Shown in pieces: positions 4,748 to 23,303 of a stretch of 64,000 nt of DNA. Position 1 is the first letter of the stretch. Each line of letters begins with the position of its first letter. The notes below the pieces were generated by a model. The model saw only the letters and a list, made by a program, of their open reading frames with translations. It did no database searches and was not told the DNA's origin. Source of the DNA: Arthrobacter sp. TMP15 (GTDB lineage Bacteria; Actinomycetota; Actinomycetes; Actinomycetales; Micrococcaceae); contig NZ_CP154262.1 in the NCBI RefSeq assembly GCF_039529835.1, positions 3,410,001 through 3,474,000 on the forward strand, in the 5' to 3' direction. A program made the position numbers and the translations under genes.

Positions 4748-5380
<633 letters not shown>

Positions 5381-19432: not shown

Positions 19433-19440
19433 ATTGTCGG

Positions 19441-19513
19441 TGGGCCCTGCGGGGCTCGAACCCGCGACCCACGGATTAAAAGTCCGATGCTCTACCAACT
19501 GAGCTAAAGGCCC
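19441..19513 (-). tRNA. tRNA-Lys (anticodon TTT)
   Basis: This 73-nt gene folds as a complete cloverleaf. The acceptor begins GGGCCTT and ends AGGGCCC followed by discriminator A. The D arm contains AGCTCAGTTGGTAGAGC, the anticodon loop is CTTTTAA (anticodon TTT) and the T arm contains GGTTCGAGCC. The CCA end is not encoded. It decodes AAA and AAG lysine codons, and a strong terminator follows. Confidence 0.97.
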
Positions 19514-19736: not shown

Positions 19737-20384
19737 ATGAATGATCGACCAGCCAGCAACACCCCCCGACCGCATAAGCCTGTCCCATTTGCTCCTATTG
19801 ACTTTGAGCAGTATGCAGGCGGCACCGACCCGGCACGCGTTTCAGAAGCGGCTCACCTTGCCGCCCGTGCCCTTGTCCATAGCGGCCGTGCAAGCAATGA
19901 CCCCGCGGTCACCAAACGGCTAGTGAAGCTTGCAGATAAGCAAGGACTGGAAGCCATCGCGGAGATGTGGGCGGCCAGCCCTGCCCGTTCCCTCCCCGGC
20001 GCCCTGTGGCGGCTCTACGCACTGCGAGCAGCAACACTGCAGGATCCAGAAGGCATCAGCGTATTCTTCCGAGCAGGGCAGCACACCGCGCAGGTCTCCA
20101 ACGCAGTCGCCGGTGTGGCCGAGCCGCCGGGTGCTGAAGAGATCACCGTCATGGCTGATGCGATCTTATCTGGCGCCTTTGACGGCGATTTCGATGTTGC
20201 CTTGGAACGTTCAGCCGCATTTTGCCGCGTCATCGCGCTAGGTCAGGCCACCATGGCCGGCGAGCGTGAAGTGGCTCACCCGGAGCACTCGGCCACACTG
20301 ACGAAAAAGGCTCACCAGCTGGTTCGGACAGCTGAAGACTTGGAGGGCGCCGCCAGATCCTGGCGTAAAGGCGAACTGGACTAA
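19737..20384 (+). CDS. Conserved hypothetical protein (215 aa)
   Basis: I do not recognise this protein. It is soluble and largely helical, with LAARALVHSGRASNDPAVTKRLVKLADKQGL early, then AASPARSLPGALWRLYALR, and a C-terminal TKKAHQLVRTAEDLEGAARSWR. It has no signal peptide, membrane segment or obvious catalytic motif. The tandem helical, Ala-rich character suggests a scaffold or partner-binding protein. It lies upstream of the structured RNA and phosphate-transport genes on the same strand, so it could be part of that transcription unit. Confidence 0.7.
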   Translation: MNDRPASNTPRPHKPVPFAPIDFEQYAGGTDPARVSEAAHLAARALVHSGRASNDPAVTKRLVKLADKQGLEAIAEMWAASPARSLPGALWRLYALRAATLQDPEGISVFFRAGQHTAQVSNAVAGVAEPPGAEEITVMADAILSGAFDGDFDVALERSAAFCRVIALGQATMAGEREVAHPEHSATLTKKAHQLVRTAEDLEGAARSWRKGELD

Positions 20385-20441
20385 TCCACTGATCCACAGA
20401 CCCCAGTTGACAGTCGGGGCAGGACGTAGAAGACTGAAAGC

Positions 20442-20525
20442 GGTGTCGAACCGTGGAACCCCCGGGCTCCATTTTATAGCCGCTACGAGCGGCCCAGTGC
20501 CGAGAGGCGCTCCCGGTTCGGCACC
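20442..20525 (+). ncRNA. Predicted four-way-junction RNA element upstream of the pit operon
   Basis: The sequence folds into a cloverleaf. Outer stem P1 pairs 20442-20453 (GGTGTCGAACCG) with 20514-20525 (12 bp, one G-U). Inside are three hairpins: 20454-20471 (TGGA/TCCA plus inner C-G pairs), 20479-20493 (GCCGC, loop TACGA, GCGGC), and 20496-20511 (AGTGCC, loop GAGA, GGCGCT). ACTTTT follows P1. It could be a leader element of the DUF47-pit transcript, a small RNA, or an elaborate terminator of the preceding gene. It does not match tRNA: there is no T-arm or anticodon arm. Prediction is by eye only. Confidence 0.5.
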
Positions 20526-20586
20526 ACTTTTATGCCGTGAATCTAACCGGGCACTCCGTTCGATCCGCTAACAAAAAGGCCTCATC

Positions 20587-21204
20587 GTGAAGTTTCGACT
20601 TTTCCCTCAGGAGACTGCCGGCCTTCAGGCTCTGGTAAGCATGGCCGAGCACGTCCTCGCCGGAACTCACACGTTGGCCGAACTCCTTGGGGCCGGGAGG
20701 TCCAATTTTTCCTCCCTCACGGAATCCTTGCGCCAGCACGAGGCCGCCTCCTCAGCCAATTTCGCCACCCTGCTGACCACCATGCGCACAAGTTTCATCA
20801 ACCCACTGCCGCGTGAGGACCTCTACGCACTGGGACGGCTGCTGAACGAAACCACCGAAGTCCTCACAGGTGCTGGAGAAATCGTGGAGCTGTACACCCT
20901 GGACCGTGTTCCGTCCCGAGTCAGCGACCAGCTTGAGATCTTAGCGCGGCAGTGCGAACTGACCTTGACTGCCATGAAGTCCCTTAACGACTTGGACAGC
21001 CTGGAGGACTATTGGCTGGAGGTCTTGCGGCTATCCAAGCGGGCTGACCACACTCACCGCGCCGTTGTTTCTGAATTGCTTGCCGCTCACAGTCCCACAA
21101 CTTTTACCAAGTACAGGATGCTGACAGACCAGTTCGCAGCAGCCAGCCACCGAATTCGTGCAGTGGCCACACAGGTCGGTAGCATCATCGTCAAGGAATC
21201 CTAA
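20587..21204 (+). CDS. DUF47/PhoU-like Pit accessory protein
   Basis: This 205-residue, all-helical protein belongs to the DUF47 (PhoU-like) family: FRLFPQETAGLQALVSMAEH at the N-terminus, then FINPLPREDLYALGRLLNET and LYTLDRVPSRVSDQ. Such proteins are encoded next to Pit transporters and are thought to regulate phosphate flux. It is translationally close to the transporter gene (3 nt between stop and start). The start is GTG at 20587. A structured RNA element lies 62-145 bp upstream. Confidence 0.88.
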   Translation: MKFRLFPQETAGLQALVSMAEHVLAGTHTLAELLGAGRSNFSSLTESLRQHEAASSANFATLLTTMRTSFINPLPREDLYALGRLLNETTEVLTGAGEIVELYTLDRVPSRVSDQLEILARQCELTLTAMKSLNDLDSLEDYWLEVLRLSKRADHTHRAVVSELLAAHSPTTFTKYRMLTDQFAAASHRIRAVATQVGSIIVKES

Positions 21205-21207
21205 GCG

Positions 21208-22218
21208 TTGATCACCGTCCTGCTCAGTGCTGTGATCGTCACTGCAGCAATATTCGCGTTCCTGAACGGTTTTCGCGATGCCTCATCCGCCGTCGCACTT
21301 TCAGTGCGAACCCGCGCGCTAACGCCCACCGTGGCGCTGCTCTTGGCTGGTTTATTCAACTGTCTGGGTGCTATAGCTAGCGTGGCGCTGACGGCTACGT
21401 TCGCCGAGAAGCTGTTCTCGGTACCTGAAGGCCGCAGTGGTCTGATCCTGCTACTTGCAGCACTTATTGGCGCCAATTTATGGGGTGTCTACCTATGGTG
21501 GCGCGGCTTCCCATCATCCTCAACGCACGCCCTGATCAGTGCGCTCGTCGGGGCTTCCTTGGGTTCAACCATTATTGGGCAACCCCCGCTTGAAGGCATT
21601 TACGCCACCATGCTGATTTTGGTGCTGGTGCCGCTGCTGGTCTCCCCCGTCGTTGCTTTCATCCTTGGTTTCCTGGCTGTTTACCCCACATCTTGGGCCG
21701 CACGAAACACCGCACCCAACAAAGTAAACCAACGCACCCGGCAGTTACAGTCAGTTGCTGGAGCCTCAGTGGCATTTGGGCATGGGCTTCAGGACGGCCA
21801 ACGCACGACGGCGGTTGTCTTGTTTGCCCTCATAGCCGCCGGCACCATCGGGGCTGGCGAAATACCCCTGTGGGTGCCGATCTTCACCGCCGCGTTTCTG
21901 ACAATAGGCACACTATTTGGTGGCTGGCGGATCTCCTACACGCTGGGACACCGACTTGTCCGCATCGACCCCATGCGTGGATTTGTCGCCCAGCTGGTGG
22001 GCGCCGGGCTATTGTTCATTGGCGCCATTGGACTTCATATGCCCTTGTCCACAACCCACACTGTTACTGCCGCCATTGTCGGCGCCGGGGGGAATCAGCG
22101 CTTTGCAGCCACCAACGGACGGGTGCTGACCCGGATTGCCGGGGCCTGGGTAGCAACTCCCATTGCCTGCCTGCTCCTGGGCGCGCTGTTCTTCCTGGCC
22201 CTGGCACCACTGGCGTAA
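21208..22218 (+). CDS. pit: Inorganic phosphate transporter, PiT family
   Basis: This 336-residue membrane protein has the two inverted PiT signatures: AFLNGFRDASSAVALSVRTRAL near the N-terminus and VAFGHGLQDGQRTTAVV in the second half, plus WWRGFPSSSTHALISALVGA and the matching STTHTVTAAIVGAG. It is a proton-coupled, low-affinity phosphate (metal-phosphate) carrier. The TTG start lies 3 nt after the DUF47 gene. It converges on the high-affinity pstSCAB operon, so both uptake routes sit side by side. Confidence 0.92.
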   Translation: MITVLLSAVIVTAAIFAFLNGFRDASSAVALSVRTRALTPTVALLLAGLFNCLGAIASVALTATFAEKLFSVPEGRSGLILLLAALIGANLWGVYLWWRGFPSSSTHALISALVGASLGSTIIGQPPLEGIYATMLILVLVPLLVSPVVAFILGFLAVYPTSWAARNTAPNKVNQRTRQLQSVAGASVAFGHGLQDGQRTTAVVLFALIAAGTIGAGEIPLWVPIFTAAFLTIGTLFGGWRISYTLGHRLVRIDPMRGFVAQLVGAGLLFIGAIGLHMPLSTTHTVTAAIVGAGGNQRFAATNGRVLTRIAGAWVATPIACLLLGALFFLALAPLA

Positions 22219-22338
22219 AACCGCACCACTGGCGTAAAACTACGCCCAGGCTTTCAGGCTGTGTTGCGGGAGAAAAATGAGCCGTTAACGTTCGGCGGCG
22301 ACCCCACCGTTATGGTGAGCGTCGCCGTCGTACATTAT

Positions 22339-22523
22339 GTGAACATGGACCGGTGTGGGTGGGCCCACGCGCCCGAGGGCCCCGCTGTGAACATGGACCG
22401 GTGTGGGTGGGCCCACACGCCCGAGGGCCCCGCTGTGAACTTGCGAACAGGGGGAGGGCGTGGGTGGGCCCACACGCCCGAGGGCCCCGCTGTGAGCTTG
22501 CGAACAGGGGGAGGGCGTGGGGA
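22339..22523. repeat. Tandem repeat (48/48/57-bp units) between pit and pstB
   Basis: Units start at 22339, 22387, 22435 and 22492 (last one partial). Each begins GTGAAC or GTGAGC and shares GTGGGTGGGCCCAC and GCCCGAGGGCCCCGCT. The first two carry ATGGACCGGTGTGG; the third and fourth carry TTGCGAACAGGGGGAGGGCG. Unit 2 can form GTGTGGG/CCCACAC hairpins. All periods are multiples of three, so reading frames through it stay open on both strands. The array fills the convergent gap and ends at the pstB stop. Confidence 0.9.
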
Positions 22524-23303
22524 CTAACCGAAGCGGCCGGAGACGTAGTCTTCGGTTGACTTCTCGCTCGGGTTATTGAAGATCGCTGCCGTCTCGGCGA
22601 ACTCGATGAGCTTGCCCGGTTTCCCGGTGCCTGCAATGTTGAAGAACGCTGTCTTGTCAGAAACACGGGCGGCCTGCTGCATATTGTGCGTCACGATCAC
22701 CACCGTGTACTCGTCCTTGAGCTCGTTAATGAGGTCCTCAATAGCGAGCGTGGAGATGGGGTCAAGGGCCGAGCAGGGCTCGTCCATCAGGATTACATCC
22801 GGTGATACCGCTATGGCGCGGGCGATGCACAGGCGCTGCTGCTGACCACCGGAGAGGCCGGAGCCGGGCTTCTCCAGACGATCCTTGACCTCGTTCCACA
22901 GGTTGGCGCTGCGGAGGGATTTCTCCACGAGTGCATCGGCATCGGATTTGGGCATGCGGCGGCTGTTCAACTTGACCCCTGCCAGCACGTTGTCACGGAT
23001 GCTCATGGTGGGAAACGGGTTGGGTCGCTGGAACACCATGCCGATCTGGCTGCGCACGGTCACTGGGTCGACGCCGTCGGCGTAGAGGTTGTCCCCGTCG
23101 AGCAGAACCTTCCCCTCTACGCGCGCACCCGGGATGACCTCGTGCATGCGGTTTAAGGTGCGCAGGAACGTTGACTTGCCGCAGCCTGACGGGCCAATGA
23201 ATGCTGTGACGCTCTTGGCGTCGAGAGTGATGCTGACGTCCTCCACGGCACGGAAATCACCGTAGTAGACGTTCAAATCGCTGACATCAATACGTTTGGA
23301 CAT
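22524..23303 (-). CDS. pstB: Phosphate ABC transporter ATP-binding protein
   Basis: This 259-residue ATPase has Walker [10 protein letters not shown] (37-45), the Q-loop in [14 protein letters not shown], signature [14 protein letters not shown] and Walker [14 protein letters not shown], the standard PstB sequence. It powers high-affinity phosphate import through PstC/PstA. It is the last gene of the pstS-pstC-pstA-pstB operon, 25 nt after pstA. No phoU follows; the convergent pit locus does instead. Confidence 0.97.

Follow-up and report, generated by a model that had tools for sequence, protein, structure and literature searches.

A probable stress-response small RNA of Actinomycetes adjoining the phosphate-transport genes of Arthrobacter sp. 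TMP15

Introduction

RsaE and FsrA types are C-rich base-pairing small RNAs (sRNAs) of Gram-positive bacteria and resemble the RNA described here in that a C-rich strand could mask G-rich ribosome-binding sites. Among the actinobacterial RNAs a close comparison is Ms1, named scr3559 in Streptomyces coelicolor, an sRNA that binds the RNA polymerase core and that, like the present RNA, is structured and stands alone; it has been found in 824 species of Actinobacteria (PMC9130861). Ms1 is about 230 nt long in Streptomyces, where an oxidoreductase gene lies on one side of it, the other flank being occupied in most species by a HAD hydrolase gene (PMC9130861). The RNA analysed here, of 85-100 nt, differs from Ms1 in size, fold and neighbours, and an assignment to Ms1 or 6S RNA (about 160-230 nt, with a 6S-like bulged helix) was rejected, the conserved unit measuring 82-94 nt between the stem ends in 70 aligned sequences and containing two short hairpins. 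The 6C RNA (RF01066) is likewise an actinobacterial sRNA, of about 100 nt and with C-runs (PMC4046766), but it carries two hairpins with C-loops, and no match to RF01066 was obtained either in the stretch of 64,000 nt analysed here (the window) or in the genome from which it comes (no match at E ≤ 0.001, a search in which the control gave a match in Corynebacterium glutamicum, below the cut-off).

Control by stress provides another term of comparison. SigR of S. coelicolor and SigH of Mycobacterium tuberculosis are extracytoplasmic function (ECF) sigma factors of thiol-oxidative stress, with published consensus sequences GGGAAT[G/C]-16 nt-[C/G]GTTG and [G/T]GGAA[C/T]A-16 nt-[C/G]GTT, respectively (PMC3489674). 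An RNA gene, that of tmRNA, is counted in the SigR regulon of Streptomyces (PMC4921905); however, its fold is unrelated to that of the present RNA and the window contains no tmRNA match. Here, the analysis of a structured element located between a gene without family assignment and the DUF47-pit genes of Arthrobacter sp. TMP15 leads us to propose that it probably represents a stress-response RNA overlooked so far, which does not belong to the adjoining phosphate-transport genes, a reading based on the thiol-stress-type promoter sequence that precedes the RNA in many relatives.

Results

The window corresponds to positions 3410001-3474000 of contig C1 in a genome of 3.7 Mb and two contigs. The structured RNA occupies positions 20442-20525 of the plus strand, exactly as an earlier note on this DNA had placed it, with predicted mature ends. 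Its folding energy is -45.1 kcal/mol against a mean of -29.2 for shuffled sequences (z = -4.90), and none of 200 shuffles folded as well. Two covariance models match at 20432-20534 on the same strand: R1, built from 44 sequences of the family (alignment A1, from which identical rows had been removed), and R2, built from 70 class-wide sequences (alignment A5). The outer stem, supported by fold and covariation, is formed by the 5′ strand at 20442-20453 and the 3′ strand at 20514-20525 and comprises 12 bp with one G-U pair. It encloses the C-rich strand CCCCCGGGCTCCA (20459-20471), the proposed contact site, whose CCCC and GG are invariant and whose CA is nearly so among the 70 sequences; hairpin 2, GCCGC-TACGA-GCGGC (20479-20493); and hairpin 3, with a GAGA tetraloop (20496-20511). 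The stem is followed by ACTTTT (20526-20531), a possible weak termination signal to which, as to the stem, a terminator scan around the element gave no score; the T-run is absent in Sinomonas and many other relatives. The stem, the GAGA hairpin and ACTTTT had all been described correctly in the earlier note.

The alignment A5 consists of 63 matches of set A4 (from which weak antisense matches of R1 had been excluded through an E-value limit) minus one with a long insertion (L102), plus the window copy (L001) and seven weaker matches (L168 and L181-L186); L187, weak and probably spurious, was kept out and was later not matched by R2. In this alignment, made with MAFFT and not fitted to a structure, 93.5% of the base-pair cells pair under a structure written by hand from its R1-found sequences. 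Cells with double changes number 165 against 53 in shuffles, none of 500 shuffles reached any of the five measures used, and sliding the register by one to three columns lowers pairing to 29-47%. The earlier note had allowed for an element devoid of covariation; in fact 14 of the 22 pairs show double changes. Support by covariation comes mainly from the outer stem, where 11 of the 12 pairs undergo double-sided changes somewhere among the 70 sequences. Hairpin 2, with 98% of its cells paired, has a single double-change pair (C-G/U-A) and three invariant pairs out of five. In hairpin 3 (89% of cells paired) two of the five pairs are invariant; the pair modelled at its outer end does not form in 32 of the 70 rows. 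The loops are strongly constrained, that of hairpin 2 being YNNGA in 69 rows and that of hairpin 3 GAGA, GTGA or GCGA in 65. Conservation within the RNA is highest in the C-rich strand and in hairpins 2 and 3 with their loops.

Hairpin 1 behaves differently. The fold of the single sequence draws it as a short stem with an internal loop and leaves 7+2+2 unpaired bases at the junction, at variance with the earlier description of a junction almost free of single-stranded bases. In the 45 rows nearest to the window its two GG/CC pairs are possible in 38-39, and in equally many this GG could instead pair with the 3′ side; in the other 25 rows the corresponding pairs can be formed in three at most. 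A class-wide hairpin 1 was dropped because its pairs are not kept beyond the window-like rows, and the rival pairing together with the low count in the distant rows favours the view that CCCC(C)GG..CA is, across the class, a conserved strand lacking any conserved partner. From the cloverleaf of three hairpins that had been proposed, hairpins 2 and 3 stand, while hairpin 1, and hence the four-way junction, is less certain.

No family of Rfam 15 exceeded its gathering threshold at the element or at the RNA in 18 plus 13 loci of relatives, in agreement with the earlier remark that the element matches no nameable family. Specifically, tRNA, tmRNA, SRP RNA, 6C and riboswitch models gave no match at the element; the RF00169 match of the genome, SRP RNA, lies elsewhere (C1:3319244-3319339), and the sole find of ARAGORN was a tRNA-Lys at 19439-19513. 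A relaxed scan of the window element returned three matches with E values of 2.5-7, the best of them, to Deinococcus Y RNA, falling on the minus strand with 15.5 bits against a threshold of 80, and a bacterial Y RNA was dismissed as chance. A Thr_leader match overlapping the RNA in one relative (L153; E 0.057, 29.5 bits against a threshold of 55), with nothing in L152, was also taken as chance. Near the RNA of Arthrobacter sp. H14 (L042), SAM-IV and SAM riboswitch models match the minus strand at 1056-1180 and 2531-2619.

The RNA is widely distributed. Within the genus, blastn with positions 20400-20590 as query found it in 23 of 23 genomes, including the source and one other of the same species; most matches begin at 20401-20406, immediately 5′ of a TTGACA described below, and 15 end between 20534 and 20543. 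With 20400-20545 as query it was present, nearly always in single copy, in 195 of 197 genomes of the family and in all 189 good ones. R1 matched 244 of the 248 genomes of the order, representing 85 of 86 genera, and 231 of the 233 with a completeness of at least 90% and a contamination of at most 5%, and the sequences therefore suggest that the RNA is nearly universal in the order of the source bacterium. Two genomes of the order without R1 match (G258 and G376; 0.8-0.9 Mb, 99-100% complete) are perhaps cases of loss in reduced genomes. In the class, R1 matched 145 of 246 genomes (101 missed) and R2 244 of 393, own order included (149 missed); the misses may reflect loss or model sensitivity, the large searches having had stricter filters. 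In a sample of the phylum R2 matched 30 of 296 genomes, one of the 30 lying outside the class (E 0.004); this single outside match, with misses counted among the genomes listed, speaks for the specificity of R2. A family that we take to be Mycobacteriaceae has the RNA in 73 of 121 genomes, some with two or three matches. The RNA is probably ancestral to the class Actinomycetes. A repeat element was rejected, as the source genome holds a single copy and its second R1 match (28 bits) is the antisense of the same site. A record bearing a name of the Bacillota, Sporosarcina beigongshangi (L032), carries both the DUF47 gene (80% identity) and the RNA (95% identity) and is probably a misnamed Arthrobacter-like genome.

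Copies are also carried by plasmids. The window RNA used as query matches two large Arthrobacter plasmids, one of them with DUF47 and pit behind the RNA as in the window. A query of the Streptomyces type found 29 Rhodococcus plasmids, with 38-55% of its length aligned in each of the matches listed. Streptomyces-like genomes contain a second form of the RNA in which hairpin 2 is about 25 nt longer; it was found near 5001-5131 of loci L227-L232, from Streptomyces-like genomes and from a genome of another family (f53) with two copies, and no Rfam model matched it in the two loci scanned. This second form as query matches 60 plasmid records, 45 of them from Streptomyces and 40 over at least 80% of the query length, and a Streptomyces-type extended copy is 98% identical to a copy on a Streptomyces chartreusis plasmid. 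Of these plasmids, 10 of the 29 from Rhodococcus and 8 of the 60 from the second-form search were examined, and R2 matched all 18 with 31-67 bits. No constant gene neighbours the RNA among them (the stretch of L261 being unannotated), and no pit gene is near it in the annotated stretches of the Rhodococcus and Streptomyces plasmids examined; a phoU gene lies about 2.5 kb from the RNA in L266. Genes for DNA ligase, lsr2 or mihF lie close to seven of the ten Rhodococcus copies (L262, L263, L265, L266, L269, L270 and L271), and a sigma factor gene lies close to two of the eight Streptomyces-type copies (L257 and L273). Carriage by phages was considered and rejected: in the single IMG/VR contig matched, judged by eye, the RNA adjoins a homologue of the upstream host gene and the phage-like genes are farther away, and the only match among GenBank phages is a record that has no annotation and is labelled UNVERIFIED.

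In the window the RNA is preceded by a promoter-like element made up of TTGACA (-35-like; 20407-20412) and AAGACT (-10-like; 20430-20435) with a spacer of 17 nt. In 30 Micrococcaceae loci, those chosen for a search with R2 and used for the promoter and neighbour counts in this family, TTGAC occurs in every upstream sequence (25 times as TTGACA) against a shuffle mean of 1.1, and AAGACT, AAAACT or AACACT follows at the same spacing in 19. A simple sigma-70 scan around the element returned no promoter and did not score the pair, because AAGACT agrees with TATAAT at three of six positions. By its sequence the Micrococcaceae element is of the housekeeping type, and we infer a transcription start around 20440-20443, next to the base with which the stem opens. 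This promoter-like sequence, together with an outer stem and two hairpins kept with covariation, argues for the small RNA that the earlier note had offered as one possibility.

Other lineages carry a different sequence at this place. Among 135 distinct upstream sequences from outside the Micrococcaceae (duplicates and those shorter than 76 nt left out), GGAAY-N18-GTT occurs in 58 and GGAAY-N19-GTT in 14, the shuffle means being 0.12 and 0.14 (at most 2); the two are thus present in 72 and absent in 63, and neither precedes the RNA in any of the 30 Micrococcaceae loci. Allowing spacers of 16-20, the element was found in 75 of the 135 (shuffle mean 0.7, at most 4), against 3 of 532 control windows located farther upstream. 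The published SigR and SigH consensus sequences have the same 18-nt distance (PMC3489674). Given that 60 of the 135 upstream sequences lack the element, the ECF link would apply to part of the lineages. In 63 of the 75 element-bearing sequences the last base of GTT lies at most 5 nt from the model start; in 10 it lies 23-29 nt 5′ of that start, and there the RNA may possess an extra 5′ part. An apparent additional hairpin before the stem was observed in L133, L142, L143, L154 and L155, and all of these except L154 have an ECF-type promoter farther upstream. In L164 (5001-5287) two tandem copies of the RNA start 182 bases apart, each with its own ECF-type promoter. The second form also has an ECF-type promoter in four Streptomyces-like copies, and GGAAY-N17-19-GTT precedes 15 of the 18 plasmid copies.

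The gene upstream of the RNA (19737-20384, plus strand) encodes a protein of 215 aa without match to any Pfam, NCBIfam or PHROGs family above cut-off, a neighbour and not a part of the RNA; a homologue lies within 400 nt upstream in 24 of the 30 Micrococcaceae loci and in 61 of 144 other loci. Downstream on the same strand are the DUF47 gene (20587-21204) and the gene for a Pit-type phosphate transporter (21208-22218; PF01384, E 1e-63). The DUF47 assignment has a PF01865 match below the curated cut-off (E 8e-4), and an Arthrobacter plasmid has at the corresponding position a homologue annotated as DUF47 family; the window protein shares 99% identity with its counterpart in Arthrobacter sp. H35-MC1. 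Between the stem and the DUF47 start there are 61 bases. Positions 22261-22527, which separate pit from an ABC transporter gene, contain short in-frame repeats (MDRCGWAHTPEGPAV-like). All 30 Micrococcaceae loci have DUF47 downstream on the same strand, 29 of them within 400 nt (19-213 nt away). Outside the family it was found within 400 nt downstream in 9 of 144 loci, a count obtained with Micrococcaceae queries only that may have missed some. This scarcity of DUF47 outside the family and the other neighbours present elsewhere argue that the RNA is not in general a member of the pit operon.

At three probable Streptomyces loci the RNA lies before a malic-enzyme-like gene, and at two of the three it clearly follows a gene for a HelD-like helicase, names that the protein sequences suggest. 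An RNA of S. coelicolor, scr2952, was reportedly described by Vockenhuber et al. in 2011, and its name and place in the SCO numbering would presumably fit the interval between helicase and malic-enzyme genes that holds the RNA in L152 and L153. It may be the Streptomyces counterpart of the present RNA. In contrast, the one paper that the literature searches gave for scr2952 states that it is in Rfam (PMC8388888), and the only Rfam match with E ≤ 1 in these two loci is the sub-threshold Thr_leader of L153. The main text of PMC3765725 mentions neither SCO2951 nor SCO2952 and that of PMC11678152 does not contain '2952'; the Bifidobacterium breve RNAs given in the relevant part of PMC5746004 are Rfam-based only. 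No published description was found in Rfam 15 or in literature searches that covered main texts, mostly of open-access papers.

Discussion

Taking into account that the RNA has a promoter-like sequence of its own, a covarying stem and a conserved C-rich strand, we propose that it is a stand-alone sRNA gene of about 85-100 nt, often controlled by stress and acting in trans through its C-rich strand, a proposal from sequence comparison that we hold with evenly balanced confidence. In the model, the RNA would be made on its own from the promoter-like element that ends just 5′ of the outer stem; stress would trigger its synthesis wherever a lineage has the ECF-type promoter, and in Micrococcaceae synthesis would be constitutive. 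The covarying stem closes two conserved hairpins, with a YNNGA pentaloop and a mostly GNGA tetraloop, and the resulting scaffold would present CCCC(C)GG to G-rich sites, for instance the ribosome-binding regions of target mRNAs; the composition of this strand suggests such pairing. Action would be in trans, as the neighbours differ among families and replicons.

A second explanation, possible although held with less confidence, is that the RNA works in a ribonucleoprotein in which the C-rich strand, together with hairpins 2 and 3, would bind a conserved actinobacterial protein and mRNAs would not be paired. Candidates for the partner are an RNA chaperone, a nuclease and components of the transcription or translation apparatus, and the RNA could be a sponge, a scaffold or a regulator. 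Hairpins 2 and 3 are conserved like the C-rich strand, beyond what a base-pairing RNA needs, and this favours a protein partner; invariant positions are spread over three distinct elements, among them parts of both hairpins and of their loops. Presence in 231 of the 233 good genomes of the order is the pattern of a housekeeping RNA, and the plasmid copies near DNA ligase, lsr2, mihF or sigma factor genes are placed as one might expect of plasmid genes interacting with the machinery of the host, although the plasmid neighbours are not constant. We rank pairing to mRNAs slightly ahead of a protein partner.

More tentatively still, the RNA could be an undescribed core ribonucleoprotein RNA of Actinomycetes, tied to thiol stress in many lineages, constitutive in Micrococcaceae and used by plasmids to tune their hosts. 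If this doubtful picture were correct, the RNA would be perhaps as universal across the order as SRP RNA or tmRNA; Streptomyces would hold a duplicate with an enlarged hairpin, and large plasmids of Rhodococcus and Streptomyces would have picked the RNA up, sometimes beside nucleoid or sigma genes.

To the earlier note the compact design had suggested a regulatory leader, such as one sensing a ligand or ion for phosphate uptake. As a general function this is not supported: a cis-acting leader or attenuator of the DUF47-pit operon, responding to phosphate, a metal ion or another ligand, would agree with the constant position of DUF47 in Micrococcaceae and could use the outer stem and T-run as a conditional terminator, but it is an unlikely explanation in view of the rarity of DUF47 behind the RNA in other families, of a distance to DUF47 that varies even within Micrococcaceae, and of the absence of a shared downstream gene among the other chromosomal and plasmid copies. 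An added leader role within Micrococcaceae is possible, given that DUF47 follows in every locus of this family. It is very improbable that the element is an intrinsic terminator of the upstream gene and nothing more. A strong stem followed by ACTTTT does stand 57 bases past the upstream stop codon; however, conservation peaks inside the stem, the T-run is neither conserved nor scored, and a promoter-like element intervenes between that gene and the stem. The suggestion that only the outer stem might be conserved, as a terminator, does not fit an RNA whose hairpins 2 and 3, loops and C-rich strand are its most conserved parts. Finally, a leaderless mRNA whose small protein would begin with the stem GTG (20443) can be practically discarded, for even with GTG as first codon in 37 of the 44 family rows and a predicted transcription start adjacent to it, 11 rows have an in-frame stop inside the RNA, 7 lack the GTG and 3 have a changed length, the variable sites number 12, 10 and 9 over the three codon positions (41 ungapped rows), and class-wide lengths fall in all three frames.

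Present in all but two of the 233 good genomes sampled from the order and matching no Rfam 15 family, the RNA would rank among the most widely kept unlisted sRNAs of Actinobacteria, and the R2 covariance model is enough to begin annotating it. The promoter evidence predicts when the RNA is made in many lineages. The plasmid copies, if this were confirmed, point to a use in plasmid-host biology and, again if confirmed, the RNA would add an RNA arm to the thiol-stress response of antibiotic producers and other actinobacteria.
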